A stretch of 35,138 nucleotides of DNA from Candidatus Altimarinota bacterium (GTDB lineage Bacteria; Patescibacteriota; Gracilibacteria; BD1-5; UBA6164): positions 1 to 35,138 of the forward strand of contig JABWCI010000012.1 in NCBI GenBank assembly GCA_013368515.1, given 5' to 3'. Within the stretch, counting starts at the first letter, position 1; each line of letters starts with the position of its first letter. This document shows, piece after piece, positions 2,128 to 30,702 of the stretch. The translations under genes and the position numbers were made by a program. Below the pieces are notes generated by a model that saw nothing but the letters and a program-made list of their open reading frames with translations, ran no database searches and was not told where the DNA came from.

Positions 2128-5100
2128 ATGCAAAAAAAATTTATTATAAAAAAAATGACTTGTGCAAGTTGTGTAAATTTAAATCAAAATGCAATAAAAA
2201 ATTTACCATGAGTTAAACAAGTTAGTATAAACTTGGCTACAAATATAGCCAATGTAGAATTTGATGAAAATCTAGTTGATTTTTTAAGAATAAAAAAAGA
2301 AATAGAATCTAATTGATTTGAAGTAGAAGAAAATATAAAAACTAATAAAAATAAAGAATCTGAAACAAGATATTTTAAATTATTTTTAGGATCACTTATT
2401 TTTTCTATTCCTGTTTTTTCAATGATGTTTGGTGATTATATGATTTGAAAAACATTTTTATGAGTTGATTTATTGATGTATATTTACTCTATTTTATCAG
2501 CTATTGTAGTTTTTATATTTTGATATCATTTTCATATTTGAGCTTTTAAATCATTGTTAAAATTACATTTTAATATGGATTCATTAGTATCACTTTGAAC
2601 ATTAACAGCATTTATTTATTCTTTTATTGTTATGTTTTTAGGTTGATATGTAGTATATTTTGAAGCAGCAGTAGCAATAATAACTCTTATAAATTTAGGG
2701 AAATATTTAGAAGCAAAAGCTAAAGCAAGAGCATGAGATGCTATTTCAAAATTACTTGAATTATGAGTAAAAAAAGCTTATGTTTTAAGTTGATTAAAAG
2801 TTATAGAAAAAAATATAGATGATGTTTTAGTTTGAGAAGTTGTAATTGTAAAATCATGAGAAAAGATACCACTTGATTGAACTATTTTGACATGAAGTGC
2901 AAATATAGATGAATCAATGTTAACATGAGAAAGTTTACCTGTTTATAAAGAAGTATGAAGTGAATGTTTTGGTTCTACTATAAATTTAGATTGAAATATA
3001 AATGTCAAAGTAACTAAGACAAATTCTAATTGAACTTTGGCAAATATTATAAAAATGGTTGAACAAGCTCAAACTTCAAAAGCACCAATTGAACATTTAG
3101 CAGATAAAATTTCATGAATTTTTGTACCAGTTATTATAGTTATTTCTATTTTAACTTTTACTTTTTGGTTTTTTATTACAGGCGATATTAGTATATCAAT
3201 TATTAGATCAGTAGCAGTTTTGGTTATAGCTTGTCCTTGTGCTCTTTGACTTGCCACACCAACAGCAATTATGGTATGAACATGAGTTTGAGCAAAAAAT
3301 GGTATACTTATAAAAAATGCTGAAACTTTGGAAAAAGCAGGTAAATTAGATGTAATTGTTTTTGATAAAACAGGAACTCTTACAAATTGAAAACCTGAAG
3401 TTACAGATATAATTAATTTTACAAAAGATAGAGAAGTTTTTATATCAATTTCAAAATCATTATCTATATTATCTAATCATCCATTATCAAAAGCTATATC
3501 AAATTATGATTCCAAAAATGAAATTTATAAAGTAAATAATTTTGAGGAAATAAGAGGAAAATGAATAATCTGAGAAATAAATTGAGAAAAAATTAGATTA
3601 TGAAATAAAAAATTGTTTGAAAATATAAGTGATGAAATAAAATTTCAAATTGAAAAACTTACAGAATCTTGAAAAACACCAATTATAATATGAAATGAAG
3701 ATGAAATTTTTGGTATTATTTGATTACTTGATTTACCAAAATCTTGAGTTATTGAAACTATTAAAAAGATTCATGAAAAAGGTATAAAGGTAATTATGTT
3801 AACTTGAGATACAAAAAAAACAGCAGAATTTATATGAAAAGATATATGAATTGATAATATATTTTCTGAAGTTATGCCAGAAGATAAATTAAATGTAATA
3901 ATTTCTTTACAAAAAGAATGAAAAAAAGTTGCTTTTGTATGAGATGGTATAAATGATGCTCCAGCATTATCTCAAGCTGATTTGTCAATAGCTATGTGAA
4001 CTTGAAGCGATATTGCTATTGAATCAAGTGATATAGTTTTAGTAAAATGAAATTTAGAAAAAGTAATTCAAGCAATTGAATTATCAAGGGAAACACTTTT
4101 TGTAATTAAACAAAATTTATTTTGGGCTTTTATTTATAATATTATAGGTATTCCTTTGGCTATTTTTTGATTATTAAATCCTATATTTGCAAGTTTTGCT
4201 ATGAGTATGAGTAGTGTAAGTGTAGTTAGTAATAGTTTGAGATTAAAGAGGTTTAATACTTGAAATAGTTTAAAGAAAATTATTTTTATAATTATATTAT
4301 TTTTAAGTTTAATATTTTGATTTTTATTTTCTTTAAAAATTAATAACCAATTAATTGAAGAAAAAGTTTATGTTGCATTAGAATGAGAATGAAAAGTTAA
4401 GGTTATTGATTCATTAAATAAAAAAGTAGTTAAAACTATTAATTTAGCTGAAATAAAAAATTGAAAAAAAATATTATTTATGGCTCATAATATTCAAGTT
4501 TCTCCAGATGGGAAAAGTGTTTGGGTTACTGCAAATGTGATGAGAGATGAGAATAATAAAAAAATAGAAAAAGAAAAAATATTGGATCAAGTTATAGTTA
4601 TAAATCCAACTACAGATAAAATAATAAAAAGAATTCCTATAGATTATGATACTCATTTAGCTCATATTGTAATATCATCGAAAAATGATAAAGCATATGT
4701 GGCATTACAAGAGAAATGAGAATTATATATTATAAATACTTCTAATTATAATATAGAAGAAAAAATTAGTCTTTGAGATTGAAGTTGACCTCATGGTTTA
4801 AGATTATCAAATGATGATTCTAAAATTTTTATTGCATTGTTAGATTGAAAGGGATTTTTAATTTTTGATATAATATCAAAACAAATAGAAAAAATATGAT
4901 TTGATAGTTGAGTTGTGCAAACTGCTATTTCTAAAAATTGAAAGTATGCATTTGCTACATTATATAGTTCTAAACAAATATTAGTTTATGATATAGAAAC
5001 AGCTAAAACAAATTTAATTGATTTACCAAAAGAATCAAAGTGACCTGTTCAAATATATGCAACTCCAGATTCTAAATATTTATATATTGCTGATCAATGA

Positions 5101-18784: not shown

Positions 18785-19124
18785 ATACAAGAATTAACTA
18801 TGTTTTATAGATTACCTACTAATAATGATAACATAAGAATTAATTTATATATTCAAAGAAGAAAAACATAGAGTAAATTTTATATTTACTCCTTTCTCCT
18901 TAGAGAAAGTTATATTATGGAGTAAAATACATTTTTTGCTTCTTTTTTATTGTAAAAATGAAAAATCATAACTCCAAAAATTAAAATAGAGTTTTTGGCT
19001 CTGGTACTTTGAAGGATTATATCTGAAAAATAGTTTTTGGAGTAAAAATGAATAAATAATTAACTTGAATTTTTATCAATTATGGTTATATTATTATCTG
19101 TATATTAAAATCTATAAAGATATT
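18785..19124. other. left-end non-coding region with inverted repeats
   Basis: No convincing gene. A 23-codon ORF (18800-18871, ending INLYIQRRKT) is possible but weak. GAGTAAAT/ATTTACTC forms a hairpin near 18872-18892. ACTCCAAAAA (18971-18980) and TTTTTGGAGT (19034-19043) form a spaced inverted repeat. In the circular form this region lies directly downstream of the recombinase, so one of these may be its terminator or part of the attP region. A likely promoter for the XRE gene is TTGAAT (19065-19070), 16 bp, TATATT (19087-19092). Confidence 0.5.
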
Positions 19125-19328
19125 ATGAAAGTAGAACTAAATATTGAAGGATTATTAAAAGAAAAAGATATGAGATTGAGTGATTTAGAGAAACTTGTAT
19201 CTCTGAGTTACCAACAATTATGGAATATTAAAGAATGAAGAACTACAAAAGTGAGCTTTGAAACAATTTGAGAGCTTTTAAAAGGTTTTAAATGTAAACC
19301 AAATGATTTATTTAAAATAACTAAGTAA
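19125..19328 (+). CDS. XRE/Cro-like transcriptional regulator (HTH_26-like)
   Basis: 67 residues, one compact helix-turn-helix. LLKEKDMRLSDLEKLVSLSY followed by QQLWNIKEGRT gives the two helices, and a later IGELLKGFKCKPNDLFKI segment closes the fold. Small Cro-like regulators of this kind often control mobile islands or restriction genes. It is the first complete gene in the island. Directly after its stop comes the highly structured RNA region and then a DNA methyltransferase, so it may control the whole defence block. Its own promoter lies about 35-60 bp upstream. Confidence 0.8.
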
Positions 19329-19330
19329 AA

Positions 19331-19512
19331 TTAGTTACTAAGGAATACTTAGTAGTTGAAAAATAAAAATGAACTATTAGGAAAAACCAAATAGTTGATA
19401 AATAAAATTGTGAACTGTAAAGAAAGCCTTGATAGTTCATAAAGAAAGTTTTTCCTGAAGGCTGGAAAAACCTCAAAAGTAATTAAAAATAAGGAAAAGT
19501 AACTACTTTTTA
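19331..19512 (+). ncRNA. structured RNA with hairpins and a predicted pseudoknot
   Basis: This 196-bp gap has no ORF but many perfect complementary pairs. TACTAAG/CTTAGTA lies at 19336-19354. ATGAACTAT (19369-19377) pairs with ATAGTTCAT (19432-19440). A competing hairpin AACTATT/AATAGTT (19372-19378 with 19390-19396) shows GGAAAAAC in its loop. GTTTTTCC (19448-19455) pairs with GGAAAAAC (19464-19471), and the loop of that hairpin contains AAGGCT, which matches AGCCTT at 19425-19430 (a pseudoknot). GTTTTTCC can also pair with the first GGAAAAAC (19380-19387), which makes a switch. AAAAGTA/TACTTTT closes the 3' part. It could be a leader controlling the methyltransferase or a free small RNA. 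No known RNA family is recognised. Confidence 0.65.
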
Positions 19513-19524
19513 ACCAAATAAAAA

Positions 19525-20307
19525 ATGCCAAAATTTAATGATTTAGATTTACAAAATTGGAAAGATATAGATTTAGACATGAATAGTTTATGGGTTATTC
19601 CTGAAAGAAAAAAGGGATGAAAACATGATAATTTTTATCATTGAAATTTTATTCCTCAAATTCCTGAACATTTTATAAAAAGATATACTAAAAAATGAGG
19701 TTGGGTATTAGATCCATTTTTATGAAGTGCTACAACTGCAATAGAATGTGAGGAATTATGAAGAAACATTATTTGAATTGATATTCAAAAAGAATTAGTA
19801 GATAGAGCAAAAGAGTTAATTGATTCAAAGAAAATACATGCTCATTTTTGAGTTTGAGATAGTTCATCAAAAGAAACAAGGGAAGATATAGAAAAAATAT
19901 TTAAACATAGAAAAATAGATTGAGTTGATTTAGCTTTACTTCATCCTCCTTATGCTGATATTATTAAATTTACTGATAAAAAAGAAGATCTTTCGAATAG
20001 TTGAAGCATTGAAAACTTTTTATTAGATTTTTGAAAAGTTTTAAAAAATACATATAAACTTTTAAAGGAGAAGTGATATATGGTAATTGTTATGTGAGAT
20101 AAATATCAAAATTCAGAATGGATTCCATTATGATTTATGTGTATGACTGAAGCTCAAAAGGTATGATTTAAATTAAAATGAGTTATTGTTAAAAATATGG
20201 AGTGAAATAGATGAAAATCTTGAAATTGAGCAATATGGAAATATAGAGCATTAAATAGTGATTACTATTTATTTAAACATGAATATATTTTAGTTTTTAA
20301 GAAATAA
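19525..20307 (+). CDS. DNA methyltransferase (N4-cytosine/N6-adenine type)
   Basis: 260 residues. The SAM-binding motif I is LDPFLGSATTAIECEELG (Asp63 onward) and the catalytic motif IV is HPPY at 140-143, in place of the commoner (D/N/S)PP(Y/F). A late GNRGKSGNGAIWK loop and the LNSDYYLFKHEYILVFKK end are typical of N6_N4_Mtase proteins. The order is motif I before IV. It marks DNA, presumably to protect it from a partner nuclease. It follows the structured RNA by about 12 nt and is separated from the DUF262 gene by 4 nt, so MTase, DUF262 and HEPN form one operon. The base modified and the target site are unknown. Confidence 0.82.
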
Positions 20308-20311
20308 TAGT

Positions 20312-21448
20312 ATGGTAAATATTGATAAATTAAAAGAAGAAATTACTTCTTTAGAAAAAAATACAATTGCAGATTGATCAACAGTTTTAATTGATCATCT
20401 TATTATTAATTATGATAAAGATAAATTAAATATAAAACCTAAGTATCAAAGGGTATTTAGATGGAATAAGGATCAAAAATCTAAATTTATAGAATCATTA
20501 TTATTATGAATTCCTTTACCTAGCATATTTGTTGCTGAAGATGAAGATTGAAAATGGGAATTAGTTGATTGATTACAAAGAATTTCAACAGTTTTGGAAT
20601 TTTCAAAAAATAATAAATTTTTAAAAGATTATGTTGAAAATTCAGAATCTATAGTTTCCTGATTAGATAATTGACAATATTTAAAAAATTTAGAATGAAT
20701 AACTTGGGATATATTACCAGAAAAATATAAAAATAGAATTTTAGATACAAAGATTTATGTTTGAGTAATTAAAAACACATGAGATGTAAAAGCTAAATTT
20801 GAGTTATTTGAAAGATTGAATACTTGATGAACAAAATTGTCTAATCAGGAAGTAAGAAATTGTTTATTAGTAGATAAAAGTGAAGATAATTATAATAAAA
20901 TAGAAGACATATCTAATAATGAAAAATTTTTAAAATTAATAGATAATATTTCTGAAGATAAACTAAGTGCAAAAGAAAATATGGAATTAGTTTTAAGATG
21001 TTTAGCTTTGAAGAATATTAAACTAGATAAAAATATCAAAATTGAAGAATTAATAGATGATTTTATTTATAAAATTATTTGATTAGAAAATAGTATTTTT
21101 CTTCAAGAATTAGATATAAGTAATGATATTTCTAATTTTTGAAAAATGGTAGAGTTATTATATGATTTAAATGATAGATCTTTTAATAAGATTAATGATG
21201 ATTGAACTAGAAAAAATCATTTTATTTATCCTTTATTTGATACTATATCTTCTTGAATTACATATAATATTTCAGTTTGAAATATAGATGTTAATAATTC
21301 AACTCATAAAGAAAAACTAAAAGAAAAAATTGACTCTATACAAAATAATAGTGAATATATTTTATGAGCAACAACTTGAAGCTCATTAATGAGATTAAAA
21401 TTTGCGAGTATTTTTTGAAAAGATTTTTTTAATTTAGCTCAAGATTAA
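20312..21448 (+). CDS. DUF262 (GmrSD-like N-terminal nuclease fold) protein
   Basis: 378 residues. Residues 25-190 show the DUF262 hallmarks: PKYQRVFRWNKDQKSKFIES, then LLLGIPLPSIFV, then LVDGLQRISTVLEF with DGLQR at 86-90, then LFERLNTGGTKLSNQEVRN. In GmrSD and SspE this ParB/Srx-like domain binds or hydrolyses NTP and drives cleavage of modified DNA. The partner DUF1524 nuclease domain is absent here; the C-terminal half is helical and not recognised. It sits between the methyltransferase and a HEPN protein with 3-4 nt gaps. A defence role, perhaps sensing DNA that lacks or carries the methyl mark, is inferred. Confidence 0.85.
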
Positions 21449-21451
21449 AAT

Positions 21452-22225
21452 ATGAAACAAAATGAATTTTATTCATCTTTTTATGATATAAAATTAAAAA
21501 GAGAAAGACAATTATCTGATTTATTTTGAGTTATAACTAAATTTGAAGAAAAAATAAATAATTATGATAAGTTGGATCAATTTGATAAATTATTAATTAA
21601 TAATTTAGTAATTCATAGTATTGTAATAAGTAATTCAAATATACAATGATTTTTTGAAGATATTATTGATTTGTTTGAAAAATTTATATTAAGAAATAAT
21701 GTTAAAATAAATAAATTAAATAAAAATATTTATGATATGTATTATGAAAAACATAATAAAATAATTATTAGAGATTTTTTAGTTTATTGAGAGTGAATTT
21801 CAACAAAAGATTTATGAGAATTCATTTCAAAAACATCTAATGGCAATATAATTTTAGAAAGTTGAACATCAAATACTATTAATTATGATAATTTGAAACA
21901 AATATTAAAAATATTAATTATTGATTTTGATAAATTAGTATGAAATATAAATATAGATATCAATGATTATAGGTTTATAGATAATAGAATATGATTTAAT
22001 TATGTATTAAAATCAGATAATAAGGTTAAATTTTATAAAAAAATTATAAGTGATTTAAATAATACTAGAAATGAAATTGCACATTGAAAAATATTAAAAT
22101 CTGATAATATAAGGAATAATTATGATTTATTTTTATTAATAAAAAAATATTATTTTGATAAATTTTTAATAGAATTGGAATTAAGTATTAAAGATAATAT
22201 AAGAAATTGAATATATTTTAAGTAG
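21452..22225 (+). CDS. HEPN-domain protein (MAE_28990-like), probable RNase effector
   Basis: 257 residues, helical throughout. The C-terminal part has LNNTRNEIAHG, with the R-x4-H catalytic motif of HEPN ribonucleases (Arg206, Asn207, His211). The layout, an N-terminal helical domain and a late RNxxAH, resembles the MAE_28990/MAE_18760 HEPN families, which I recall as often paired with DUF262 genes. HEPN proteins in toxin-antitoxin and abortive-infection systems cut RNA. It begins 3 nt after the DUF262 stop and ends at TAG, followed by a terminator. The family call rests on the motif and neighbourhood. Confidence 0.68.
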
Positions 22226-22310: not shown

Positions 22311-22511
22311 ATGAATATTAAATCAAAATTTTGAGATAGAGTAAGGGATTTAAGAAAAAAACAAGGTTTATCTCAAGAAAAGTTAGCTGAAAAATGCAAA
22401 TTACATAGGACATATATTTGAATAATTGAAAGATGAGAAAAAAATGTTTGTCTTGAAAATATTGAAATATTAGCAATAGCTTTAGAAGTTGAAATAAAAG
22501 ATTTATTTTAG
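22311..22511 (+). CDS. XRE-family regulator, C-protein-like
   Basis: 66 residues. A full helix-turn-helix is seen: KFGDRVRDLRKKQGLSQEKL, then AEKCKLHRTYIGIIERGEKN, then VCLENIEILAIALEVEIKDL and F. This is the length and sequence style of the controller (C) proteins that time restriction enzyme expression after a restriction-modification system enters a new cell. It lies 26 bp after a repeat that looks like a C-box operator and 16 bp before a nuclease gene, which fits the usual C-R order. Repression or activation of its own operon is inferred. Confidence 0.82.
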
Positions 22512-22527
22512 TAATTTTTTTAAAAAA

Positions 22528-23730
22528 ATGACAGCACATGTTTTTGTTGTTTCTCAAGAAACTTTTCCAATTCACTTAAAATATATGTTTGCTTGAACTT
22601 GAGCATGAGAAGATTGACATGAAAATTTATGAATGATTTCTGATGTTGCTTCTTGTAGAGAATGAGATAAAATATTATTTTTTGTAACCTGAGTAGGTTT
22701 TTTCGGTTCATTTAAAGTAAAAAAAGAATATTTTTTAGATAAGACTTGAGATACTTATATGGATTATCAAAATAAAAAATGAAAAACTGAAATAATAAAA
22801 AAATTAACAAATAGAATTTTAATTAAACCTTCTGAAGTTTATTCAAATTGACTTTCAGAATGGGATATTTTAGATAATCTATCAAATTTACCTAATTGAA
22901 AGAAAAGTAATATTCAAGATTTTTTATGGTCTTTATTATATAGAAAATTAGATTGAAATAGAGGATGTACTCCAATTTTTGATTATGAATATGATTTAAT
23001 TTTAGATCAAATAAAAGCAGTAAATAATAATAAAAAATTGTTATGTAAAAATTTATTTTTTAATTGAAATAAAATTATTGAAATAAATGAACCTAGTAAA
23101 GAATATGATTTAAGTAATGTAATTAATAATGTTACATTAAAAAAATATATATGAAAAGATAAATGAGATTATATTTATGAAATTGAAGATAAAATCTATG
23201 ATGTTAAAAATAATGAAGTAAACAAAAATCAATTTAAGAGATGATCAAAAACAGAATTATGTTTACAAAAAACTGTAGAATCAGAATTAGAATTATTTTT
23301 TGCTACATATTGAAATACAAATACTAAACAATGAAAGGAAGTTTCTAAAGTAATTTGAAAAAATATTTTTTATTTTTGAACACAAGTTGTTTGTAGTTTT
23401 TGAGTAAAAAGAATTGATATATTAACAATAGATAAAGAAAATATAATAAGGGTTATAGAATTAAAAGATACTAAATATTATGATTGAATTATAGATGAAC
23501 AGTTAAAATATTATTTATGTTGGGTAGATCAATATATTAAAAGCAGTAAAGATAAAGTAATTGAACCAGTTATTGTAATAAATACTACAGATTGATTGGA
23601 TTATGATGAAATAAATAATAAAATAATAACTTTATCAAAAGAATATAAAATTAAATCAAAAATATTACCAATAAAAATATTTTTTTGGGATATAGAAGAA
23701 TGAGATATTAAATTTAATTTATTTAAATAA
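22528..23730 (+). CDS. restriction endonuclease-like: PUA/EVE-like head with NucS-like PD-(D/E)xK nuclease
   Basis: 400 residues. The first 150 look like a PUA/EVE-type domain: AHVFVVSQETFPIHLKYMFA, then VASCREGDKILFFVTGVGFF. This fold often reads modified or flipped bases. The C-terminal third has a nuclease core RIDILTIDKENIIRVIELK with Asp297, Glu311 and Lys313, the D...ExK pattern of NucS/EndoMS-like and related enzymes, plus the DEQLKYYLCWVDQYI helix. It probably cuts DNA in a modification-dependent way or serves as the restriction subunit for the downstream methyltransferase. It follows the C-protein-like gene by 16 nt and precedes the HNH gene by 7 nt. Confidence 0.65.
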
Positions 23731-23737
23731 TTTTTTT

Positions 23738-24391
23738 ATGATTAAAAATCCTTTTAATGAATGAACTCAGATTTATAAAATTTTTGAAATTTTATCAGAT
23801 TTGGAATGGCATTGTTCTGAACATGAGCTACCTTGAAGCCAACCTGCTAAAGCATTACAGATGATTAGACAAGCTTGATATAAAATGGAGAAAGTAGGTG
23901 CTAATTATGAAAAAAGAATGTTTTGTGAAGTATGTCAAAGAAAAACACCTTTTAGAAAATTAATATCATTAGAGAAAGAAGAAGAATCAATTGAAAGAAC
24001 AAAAACATTAAATCCAAAATTAAAAGAAAGAATTATAAAATTATTTTGAAATAAAGATGCTTTTTTGGATTATGAACCTACTTGAAGAAAAATAGAAGTA
24101 GATCATAGAATCCCACAAGTAAGATGGTTGGAAAAGGAAGAAGATTATATAAATATGACAGATGAACAATTATTAGATAAATTTATGTTATTAGTTAGAG
24201 AACATAATTTATTAAAAAGTAGAAATTGCGAAAGATGTGAAAGAACATGAAAAAGACAATCTTTTTTTGGTATAGATTTCTTTTATGAGTGAGATGAAAA
24301 TTATAATGAAAAGTTATGATGTAAATGATGTGGTTGGTATAATCCTGAAAAATGGAGAGAAAAATTAAATAAAAAAATAACTTGAAAATAA
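23738..24391 (+). CDS. HNH restriction endonuclease with zinc fingers
   Basis: 217 residues. The nuclease core is IEVDHRIPQVRW (Asp122, His123) followed by LLVREHNLLKSRNC (Asn157), an H-N-N/H-N-H pattern. Three cysteine pairs flank it: FCEVCQRK, NCERCERTGK and GCKGCGWYNP; these would hold structural zinc. The N-terminal 60 residues, with HELPGSQPAKALQMIRQAGY, look like a winged-helix DNA-binding domain. This resembles Type II HNH restriction enzymes. It lies between the NucS-like nuclease and the adenine methyltransferase, so it is the likely restriction partner of the latter. Recognition site unknown. Confidence 0.75.
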
Positions 24392-24441
24392 TTCATTTTT
24401 GAATACTATAAGTATCAATTAAATAACTTAAAAATAATTAT

Positions 24442-25509
24442 ATGAATTACATAGGATCAAAAAAATCACTGTTAGAATTTATTGAAAAATCTATAGCAAA
24501 AGTTGTATCAGAAAAAGATTATAAATTTTCTGATCTTTTTGCTGGAACTTGAATAGTTTGAAGATATTTTAAAGAAAAATGACATAGTGTTATAGCAAAT
24601 GATTTACAATATTATAGCTTTGTTATCAATAAAAATTATATAGAAAATCACAAACCTTTAGAATTTAAAGGTTTATTTGATATCATTGAAAAATTGAAAG
24701 ATACAGAGATATTAAAAAGAAAAGATTTAGTTCTAAATTTTTTAGATTCGTTAAAAGGTAAAAAAGGTTTTATTTATAAAAATTATTCTGTTTGATGAAC
24801 TAAATGACAAGAACATGAAAGAATGTATTTTAGTGATGAAAATGCAATGAAATGTGATGCAATTAGAACACAAATAGAAGATTGGAAAAAATCAGAATCA
24901 ATAAATGAAAATGAATACTATTTTTTACTAGCTAGTTTGTTAGAAAATATAGATAAAGTTGCAAATACTGCTTCTGTTTATTGAGCTTTTTTGAAAAAAC
25001 TAAAAAAATCTGCTCAAGTTTTAATGAATTTAAAACCTGCTGATTTCTTTTTAAATGATCACGAACATACAGTTTACAATTCTGATATTAATGAATTAAT
25101 AAAAAATACTTCTCATGATGTTGTTTATCTAGATCCACCATATAATGAAAGACAATATAGTGCAAATTATCATGTACTTGAAACAATAGCAAAATATGAT
25201 AATCCTGAAATAAGATGAAAGACTTGAATGAGAGATTATTCTATGCAAAAATCATTATATTGTAGAAAAACTGAGGTAAAAAACTCATTTAGAGAATTAA
25301 TTCAAAATATAGATGCTAAATATGTTTTTTTAAGCTACAATTGTGAAGGTTTAATGAGTTTTGATGATATTAAGGAGGTTATGTCAGAAAGATGAGAATA
25401 TTGAGTTTTTACGAAAGAATATAGAAGATTTAAAGCTGATAAAACTGAAGCAAGAAATCATAAAAAAGATAGTGTAACTGAATATTTACATTATGTAGTT
25501 ATAAAATAA
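24442..25509 (+). CDS. D12-class N6-adenine DNA methyltransferase
   Basis: 355 residues. The protein opens with the family signature MNYIGSKKSLLEFI. The SAM-binding motif is SDLFAGTGIVGRYF (Asp31 on) and the catalytic motif is VVYLDPPYNERQYSANYH with DPPY at 231-234. A long insertion between them contains KNYSVGGTKGQEHERMYFSD and is the probable target-recognition part. It methylates adenine at N6, protecting the host from one or both upstream nucleases. Gap to the HNH gene is 50 nt; the same operon is likely. Confidence 0.88.
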
Positions 25510-29199: not shown

Positions 29200-30684
29200 A
29201 TGAGAGAAACAGCAATAATATACTGTAGAAAGTCTACAGATAGAGAAGATAGGCAAACTAACTCACTTGAACATCAACTCAAAAATTGTAGAAAATCAGC
29301 TGAAAATAATGCTTTAGTGGTACTTGATGAGATTCAAGAAAGTGTAAGTGCAAAAACATGATGAAAAAGAGCTTGATTTAATAGGATGATAGAGGAGTGT
29401 AACAAAGGAAGAGTAGATTATATCATCATTGATGAAACCAAAAGACTTGCAAGAAATATAATGGATTCAGCTCTTATAATCTGACTTCTAGATAATAATC
29501 AGATCAAGTGAATTATTACAACTGATAAGAAATTTGAAGCAAGTGATATATCTGCAAAGTTTATGCTTTTACTTGAACTTTGAATATCTAAAATGGATAA
29601 TGAACATAGAAGTAAAGATATAAAAGCAAAAATGATCACAGCACTTCATAGATGACAATGGTTATCAAAAGCAACTTTTGGATATGAAAATGTCTGACCG
29701 AAATGAAAAAGAGATGTAAAAGTAGTAGAGGAAGAAGCAAAACTAGTGTTAAATGCTTTTATTATGAGAAGCCAAAATAGAACACTTCAAGAAATATCTG
29801 ACTTCCTAGAAGAAAAAACAAGTAAAAAATGGAACTGAGAAAGAGTATCAAAAATGCTAACCAATACAAAATACTACTGATTACAAAAATTTTGATGAGA
29901 AGAAGCACTACTTAATAGTCCTTGATATAGACCAATTGTATCAAAGGAGCTTTTTGATAAGGTAAATAAAGTAACAAGAACTATTCCATACCAAAAACAT
30001 GAATCACTTCCTAGATATTTTTCAAACCTATTAAAAGATGATGAGTGAAATAATTTGTATGTATATAAAACAAAATGACATATTTATTATCACTCAGGTC
30101 AAAATACATCATATAAAATAAATATCAGCCAAAAACAGATATTTGCTGAAGTAGAAAAATATATTGATAACTACAACTTCCCAAAACCTTTTATAGCTCT
30201 ATCAAAAGCAACTTTGAAAGAATATTACAAAGATAAAGTAAATATGAGAGAAACTGATATGAAAAGAACAAAAAAAGAACTCACTCAAGTAGAAGAAAGA
30301 CTATCGAGCCTACTTGAGAAGTTCTTAGATAATGATATAGATAAAAAGACTTATGATGAAAAAAAGAAAACTCTATCAACTGAAAAAATACAATTAGAAG
30401 AATCTTACAATGCAATTAAGCAATGAGATAATAATATTATAGAAATCATAGAAAATTTGTGCGAACTCGTAGAAAACCTGTCTGGTAGCTATAAAAATGG
30501 AAATGATGCAAAAAAGTGAAAAATCATCAGAGCGATGCAATGCGAACTAATTATAAACAACAAAAAAGAGCTTGTAATCAAGGAAAACAAACTCTTTGAG
30601 ATAATCAAATCTCTTAATTTTCAGGATTGGTACTCCCAAGGGGAATTGAACCCCTGTTTGGACCGTGAGAGGGTCCCGTCCTAG
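29200..30684 (+). CDS. large serine recombinase (integrase), C-terminus altered by integration
   Basis: 494 residues as integrated. The catalytic domain starts at YCRKSTDRED with nucleophile Ser12, followed by SLEHQLKNC, VSAKTGGKRAGFNRMIEECN and IIDETKRLARN. The Recombinase domain follows (about 165-290: GYENVGPKGKRDVKVVEEEA, ERVSKMLTNTKYYGL). A coiled coil spans about 340-410. No clear zinc-ribbon cysteines are seen. The last 16 residues (SQGELNPCLDRERVPS) are encoded antisense to tRNA-Glu and the stop lies inside the tRNA. In the circular form, 40 other codons would follow Tyr478 instead. At least fifteen glycines are TGA, so the enzyme only works in a UGA-Gly host. It integrates and probably excises the island. 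Confidence 0.9.
30627..30633. other. right attachment core (attR) TTGGTAC at the tRNA-Glu 3' end
   Basis: Identical to 18655-18661. It covers the complement of CCA, the discriminator base and the first acceptor pair of the tRNA, so integration leaves the tRNA intact. Confidence 0.8.
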
Positions 30685-30702
30685 CCACTAGACGATGGGA
30701 GC
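30628..30702 (-). tRNA. tRNA-Glu (anticodon CTC)
   Basis: A complete cloverleaf on the minus strand. The acceptor GCTCCCA pairs with TGGGAGT (one G-U pair). The anticodon stem GGACC/GGTCC holds the loop CTCTCAC with anticodon CTC (30667-30669 on the plus strand). The T stem GGGGT/CCCCT... has a TTCAATT loop. The CCA end is encoded. It is the insertion site of the island, and its 3' half overlaps the end of the recombinase gene in antisense. No terminator follows it now; the matching hairpin lies at 18613-18643. Confidence 0.95.

Follow-up and report, generated by a model that had tools for sequence, protein, structure and literature searches.

A segment dense in complementary strings lies at 19331-19512 of the stretch of DNA analysed here (35,138 nt from a Candidatus Altimarinota bacterium, hereafter the window), where it is flanked by the gene of an XRE-family regulator and by a DNA methyltransferase gene, the latter followed by a GmrSD_N gene (Table 1). 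The question raised by this locus is whether the segment works as a folded RNA ahead of the methyltransferase gene or as double-stranded DNA read by a protein. For the analysis, the window was translated with genetic code table 25 (UGA = Gly), and 353 genomes of the class, including the window genome (G000), served as the comparison set.

Table 1. Positions of the features at the window locus and of two RhuM-Fic genes used for comparison
Feature	Position	Strand	Evidence
TTGA-N7-TCAA inverted repeat in the XRE promoter region, unlike the array sites	19065..19079	.	seen upstream of 8 among 9 XRE genes printed
XRE-family regulator (HTH_26, PF13443)	19125..19328	+	Pfam 5.8e-10
U1, AGTT-ACTAAG-gaata-CTTAGT-AGTT	19333..19357	.	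inner 6 pairs perfect, 8/10 overall
U2, AACT-ATTAGG-aaaaa-CCAAAT-AGTT	19372..19396	.	9/10 pairs
U3, AACT-GTAAAG-aaagc-CTTGAT-AGTT	19413..19437	.	8/10 pairs, 9 with G.U
U4, ordinary hairpin GTTTTTCC-tgaaggct-GGAAAAAC, not RhuM-type	19448..19471	+	z -1.26 for 19441-19512
DNA methyltransferase (N6_N4_Mtase, PF01555), first gene past the array	19525..20307	+	Pfam 1.4e-30; PADLOC MTase_II 7.3e-89; 20 UGA codons read as Gly
GmrSD_N/DUF262 protein	20312..21448	+	Pfam PF03235 4.2e-27; PADLOC NsnA 4.5e-62, PD-T4-2_A 1.5e-35
HEPN-like protein, weak match	21452..22225	+	PF18735 3.1e-4, below cut-off
RhuM-Fic fusion without internal palindrome, tandem array upstream	L353 2001-2993		Fic named by reading
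RhuM-Fic fusion without internal palindrome, tandem array upstream	L354 about 3082-4074		Fic named by reading

The inverted repeat upstream of the XRE gene, which was missing from L056 alone among the nine XRE genes printed, is the probable operator of the XRE protein itself. Further along the window, positions 22311-25509 hold an XRE gene, a gene for a protein without a Pfam match, an ICEA/HNH-type nuclease gene (PADLOC REase_II 1.4e-31), and a D12 methyltransferase gene, which likely form a second restriction-modification set. The part of the window that holds the segment terminates where a serine recombinase gene (29200-30684) overlaps a tRNA-Glu gene (30628-30702), and this overlap indicates that it is probably an integrative element.

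Fold and palindromes of the segment

The preliminary description had read the segment as a highly structured RNA with mutually exclusive pairs. All of the pairs that it named were present, namely the repeated string GGAAAAAC (19380 and 19464) with its single partner GTTTTTCC (19448), the proposed pseudoknot strings AGCCTT (19425) and AAGGCT (19458), and the competing stem strings ATGAACTAT (19369) with ATAGTTCAT (19432) and AACTATT (19372) with AATAGTT (19390). The degree of structure was also borne out, with a fold of -43.3 kcal/mol against -22.95 +/- 3.21 kcal/mol for 200 dinucleotide shuffles (z -6.34). The excess was confined to 19331-19440 (z -6.9), and 19441-19512 gave merely z -1.26. 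The minus strand folded as well (z -4.9), because palindromes necessarily fold on both strands. In agreement with the statement that no known class fits, no Rfam family was matched; the covariance-model scan of the window returned one tRNA only, and the best score in the region was far below the gathering score. When the region was compared with its own genome by blastn, the matches were all short and AT-rich.

The region 19331-19440 was recognised by eye as three tandem 25-bp palindromes (U1 to U3), each with 10-bp arms and a 5-bp centre and each near the form AACT-N6-N5-N6'-AGTT. The apparent mutual exclusion of stems results from the outer arms AACT...AGTT that the palindromes have in common. 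The exact strings of U4 were absent from G116 and G126, the two other genomes found with the window locus. The eight exact pair strings fared similarly there: G116 retained AACTATT only, without its partner AATAGTT, and G126 had none.

Palindromes of the same geometry occur within RhuM genes (next section), and two covariance models were built on them. As model R1 includes the window units, the window was tested with model R2, which consists of 35 in-gene RhuM sites only. On the 35-kb window, R2 returned U2 (E 2.2e-7) and U3 (E 5.3e-6), and the next unrelated place scored 0.05. U1 was weak on its own (E 0.063), and units occupied the same place in G116 and G126. U2 fitted R2 best on the minus strand, that is, reversed. 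In the search of the whole genome, U2 ranked first (7.4e-6) and U3 second (1.8e-4) among the places listed; the genome's own RhuM site was not among these places, so the genome search misses some sites. The inner hexamers ACTAAG (U1), ATTAGG (U2), and GTAAAG (U3) were all among 39 RhuM words; U2 and U3 deviate in their right halves, and U3 has two imperfect inner pairs. Thus U2 and U3 are clearly, and U1 is weakly, of the in-gene RhuM palindrome type, and the units of 19331-19440 are very probably RhuM-type sites.

The palindrome within RhuM genes and its probable reading by the recognition helix

In RhuM (PF13310) genes of bacteria, archaea, and phages, an in-frame 25-bp palindrome was present at a fixed place just past the HTH codons, and its arms varied from gene to gene yet remained complementary. 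Of the 48 genomes in the family, 25 had RhuM genes. Matches to R1, in which the window units are included, were obtained in 88 of the 353 genomes of the class. Of 17 R1 loci that were read, 16 lay in a RhuM frame and one had no open frame, and 22 further loci, with frames judged by reading, comprised eight in RhuM, two in Bro-N, and 12 in neither. Since the model and pattern searches score few candidates per genome (16), non-coding arrays are undercounted.

In a collection covering all bacteria and archaea, 80 RhuM loci were obtained, 59 of them scorable by a motif search and 43 by a strict motif. The number of paired arm positions in the 59 loci was 10 of 10 in 38, nine in 14, eight in six, and seven in one, and in 41 of the 43 the palindrome stood ahead of the [YF]NLD motif at a distance of 64 or 55 bases. 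The covariation that had been named as a check on the structure was present in these palindromes of the same kind: in 35 aligned in-gene sites, 96.3% of the cells were paired, with 94 double-change cells against 25 in shuffles. Over 104 genes, 9.57 of 10 arm pairs were observed, compared with 6.6 of 10 expected from synonymous recoding. Word-sites with a spacer of 5 were found in 80 of 96 loci and none with spacers of 3, 4, 6, or 7 or with reversed words; as the 39 words were partly learned from the same genes, only the spacer and reversed-word controls are independent. The loci of the class, whose non-coding members had been fetched with R1, gave 72 word-sites at spacer 5 and 1, 1, 1, and 2 at the other spacers. 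Mismatches read on the sense strand of the in-gene sites were G.U in 15 cases and A.C in 17. That G.U was no commoner than A.C points to selection of the site as double-stranded DNA rather than as an RNA hairpin.

The idea that each RhuM gene has a second copy of its palindrome nearby was rejected: for 52 RhuM genes outside the array group, each with at least 9/10 arm pairs, the surrounding 1.5 kb contained no such copy, and the best match to the own site had 6-10 mismatches, like controls. By reading, short RhuM remnants were seen around palindromes at L245, L237, and L254. A pair of similar palindromes with the word GTTGCA retained lies behind a membrane-protein-like gene in two genera (G087 and G091; L241 and L242).

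In a near-deterministic manner, the inner six arm bases were found to track the residues of the HTH recognition helix (xxxI..H) in the gene's own protein product. Among 110 RhuM records, 104 entered a leave-one-out prediction and 97, with repeats removed, the calculation of mutual information; left out of the 104 were L102, L111, L176, and L200, with a palindrome in another register, and L235 and L251, with no internal palindrome. The mutual information between helix and arm reached z values as high as 33; the controls did not exceed 9.5 at 29 variable C-terminal positions or 5.6 at eight N-terminal positions. With respect to the residue two past the Ile, Glu corresponded to GG at arm positions 9-10 (22/22), Tyr to GA or AA (15/16), Arg to CA (9/9), Lys to CC or CA depending on the residue preceding the Ile, and Leu, Met, Ile, or Gln to AG. 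When donors were restricted to genes less than 70% identical over the next 60 residues, the helix predicted 4.98 of 6 bases, compared with 2.43 from any other gene and 2.81 from the gene with the nearest C-terminal region.

The code was also examined in 12 fresh plasmid and phage genes, of which 11 were scored and the twelfth, from Pseudonocardia, had no helix motif. The helix predicted 4.89 of 6 bases against 2.22, and all 11 genes had 8 to 10 of 10 arm pairs. In a gene of an archaeal virus, the palindrome was perfect and its word did not follow the code (1.9 of 6 bases predicted, 1.6 by chance). We conclude from this correspondence that RhuM proteins appear to read, as double-stranded DNA, a site within their own coding sequence. 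By the same code, the words of U1 and U3 are predicted to fit helices like QNI[ST]LH, and the word of U2 TINEH-like helices.

In an AlphaFold model of RhuM (mean pLDDT 84.8), the covarying residues were on helix 45-58 and the palindrome-encoded residues formed the first wing strand (67-76), both of which were well predicted; the C-terminal part modelled alone was poor (pLDDT 46). No PDB relative was detected by sequence, and the best Foldseek match had an E value of 0.01. No description of the palindrome in RhuM genes was found in the accessible literature, including the accessible parts of PMC8263062, PMC12111858, and PMC7581432, and no tested function of RhuM proteins came to light in the literature searched.

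The U2 word at spacer 5 was found in 25 stretches of a viral collection, four of them in RhuM genes that all have the [IV]NEH helix expected for this word; the remaining stretches belong to about nine families and lie mostly outside large open reading frames, and some are perhaps terminators. The U1 word was found in five stretches, none in RhuM and two inside long open reading frames. The two controls used, one scrambled word and spacer 6, each gave 0. As these were the only two controls, the viral occurrences amount to support and fall short of proof.

Related loci and the proposed role of the window array

Homologues of the XRE gene were detected in 14 of the 353 genomes (16 matches), and the genes downstream, named by reading, were RhuM, methyltransferase, phospholipase-D-like, or type I restriction-modification-like genes, or a recombinase. 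The array was carried by only three of the 16 XRE matches read. Similar units stood before the same methyltransferase in G116 and before a different gene in G126, the second unit scoring 1.5e-6 and 2e-7 with R2, respectively. The flank GAAAAATAAAAATGAACT before the second unit was identical in G000, G116, and G126, and the inner word that follows differed among the three genomes (ATTAGG, ACTAAG, and GTAAAG), each site still being largely palindromic. In G099, G119, and G118, a RhuM gene with an in-frame palindrome lies directly 3' of the XRE gene. An odd mismatch at arm position 7 is common to U3, the second unit of G126, and the XRE-linked RhuM site of G099, indicating that some array units probably share descent with that RhuM gene. 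The regions upstream of 15 methyltransferase loci contained units in G000 and G116 only, L023 being uninformative with merely 5 nt of upstream sequence; most relatives of the methyltransferase are without an array. At L013 (G118:C19), the methyltransferase is preceded by another tandem repeat, CATGTTAAC...TTAACATG followed by AAGTTTTT, present twice, which was not RhuM-type by R2.

Non-coding arrays were also found directly before RhuM-type genes. In G021 and G022, the RhuM-Fic gene has no internal palindrome (6 and 5 of 10 pairs), and five R2 sites directly precede each gene. The near sites of these arrays, AACTACCGGG and AACT[AC]CCCGG, contain the words ACCGGG or ACCCGG, as expected by the code for the [DK]TIGEH helices of the RhuM-Fic proteins. 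Three R2 sites precede a RhuM gene in G018, and two precede another gene in G121. All of these non-coding arrays look like operators and provide the best model for the window array.

No RhuM gene was found in the window, so the array lies neither within such a gene nor immediately ahead of one. The only RhuM gene of the genome (site ATGTGCA) is on another contig, and this gene and the two Bro-N genes of the genome have palindromes other than U1 to U3. As the assembly, which is about 95% complete, yielded no cognate regulator of U1 to U3, the regulator would come from another element, or else the sites are left over from RhuM genes since lost. The first of these readings, in which the window array provides operators for RhuM-type regulators whose genes lie elsewhere and stands before the methyltransferase/GmrSD_N operon, is given an even chance or slightly better. 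Transcription from the XRE promoter would run through the array into the methyltransferase gene, and a RhuM-type winged-helix protein from elsewhere, such as a related integrative element, would bind at least one array site and thereby block or tune this transcription. Different sites of the array would answer to proteins of different specificity. Counting against this reading are the failure to find a cognate in the genome, the weak score of U1 and the two imperfect inner pairs of U3, the presence of the array at only three of the 16 XRE matches and its absence from most methyltransferase relatives, and the lack of second site copies near the 52 RhuM genes.

The main rival supposes that the palindromes are the functionless remains of RhuM genes that once separated the XRE gene from its cargo. 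The RhuM genes directly 3' of the same XRE gene in G099, G119, and G118, the position-7 mismatch shared with the G099 site, the missing cognate regulator, and the RhuM remnants known around palindromes at three other loci are all consistent with such an origin. On the other hand, about 1 kb would have had to disappear two or three times with exactly the site left in place, the second-unit flank is identical in three genomes while the inside differs and is largely palindromic, and the similar arrays before RhuM-Fic genes resemble working operators; on balance we consider this origin possible but doubtful. The neighbouring XRE protein is a much poorer candidate. The array does adjoin its gene in three genomes, but the neighbouring units differ in sequence where the XRE proteins are 87-97% identical to the query, and the XRE promoters have their own inverted repeat, which makes an XRE operator very improbable. 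A silent bank of cassettes for RhuM variants was dropped because no RhuM gene adjoins the array and one unit has the opposite orientation.

The RNA readings of the preliminary description fared less well than its observations. A methyltransferase mRNA leader that acts as a conformational switch or as an attenuator would agree with the strong fold, the competing exact pairs, and the position upstream of genes. However, the partners GGAAAAAC/GTTTTTCC and AGCCTT/AAGGCT are missing from the homologous loci in G116 and G126, no Rfam family matches, the in-gene sites show no preference for G.U, and the model of in-gene DNA sites accounts for U2 and U3; such a switch is accordingly very unlikely. The tandem, hairpin-containing units of about 39 nt could also recall a type III antitoxin or a guide RNA, but the neighbouring genes include neither a toxin nor a Cas-like gene, the units differ in sequence and follow the words of RhuM sites, and one unit (U2) is reversed, leaving this reading a negligible probability. 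On the operator reading, the RNA hairpins would be a side effect of the palindromic DNA. The proposed control of the defence genes thus survives in part, as the array is probably regulatory for them, and its form as an RNA attenuator is unsupported. Overall, the structure was confirmed and its interpretation was supported in part.

The operator reading can be extended in a speculative manner. RhuM-type proteins of mobile elements might tag the genes that encode them with a hypervariable operator written into the coding sequence. Host or island arrays like that of the window might in turn offer landing sites of several specificities, through which a defence operon (methyltransferase and GmrSD_N nuclease) senses which elements have entered the cell; words would be exchanged at fixed positions, and the set of sites would thereby turn over. 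Taken as a whole, this proposal is unlikely. Plasmids, prophages, and defence islands commonly encode RhuM proteins. If the target of a RhuM protein is written in its own gene and readable from its helix, sites become predictable for many uncharacterised proteins, and regulatory links of mobile elements to defence operons become directly testable. The locus also illustrates that a DNA operator array can mimic an RNA switch when folding alone is examined.

Comparison with known systems

The array units resemble the in-frame palindrome of the RhuM family (PF13310; PADLOC candidate PDC-S05) and have the same inner words, but the window sites are non-coding, tandem, and without an adjoining RhuM gene. 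The Bro-N (PF02498) genes that were read have an in-frame palindrome at the equivalent place, with words other than those of RhuM-type sites. Such Bro-N palindromes were noted at L239 (1-2001), L250, L334, L356, L357, L265, L266, and L269, and in the window genome, for example AGTTGTCCCA-taatt-TGGGACAACT. The nearest solved fold is the N-terminal DNA-binding domain of DdrC from Deinococcus radiodurans, which matches RhuM over residues 3-124 (Z 7.8, rmsd 3.6, 96 residues), where a Z under 8 may reflect a mere common arrangement; the sequence identity is only 8%.

In type III toxin-antitoxin systems, tandem RNA repeats are followed by a ToxN-like toxin gene, whereas the genes behind the window array encode a methyltransferase and a GmrSD_N protein. 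In C-protein control of restriction-modification, a small HTH gene precedes methyltransferase and nuclease-like genes. The window has the same arrangement, with a small XRE gene ahead of methyltransferase and nuclease-like genes, but unlike C-boxes the words of the array are not tied to the XRE protein, since near-identical XRE proteins adjoin different words. RepA_N plasmid initiators have binding sites inside their own rep gene, and these are direct-repeat origins of replication. Similarly, RhuM is a DNA-binding protein that appears to have its site in its own coding sequence; however, the RhuM site is a hypervariable palindrome of fixed geometry.
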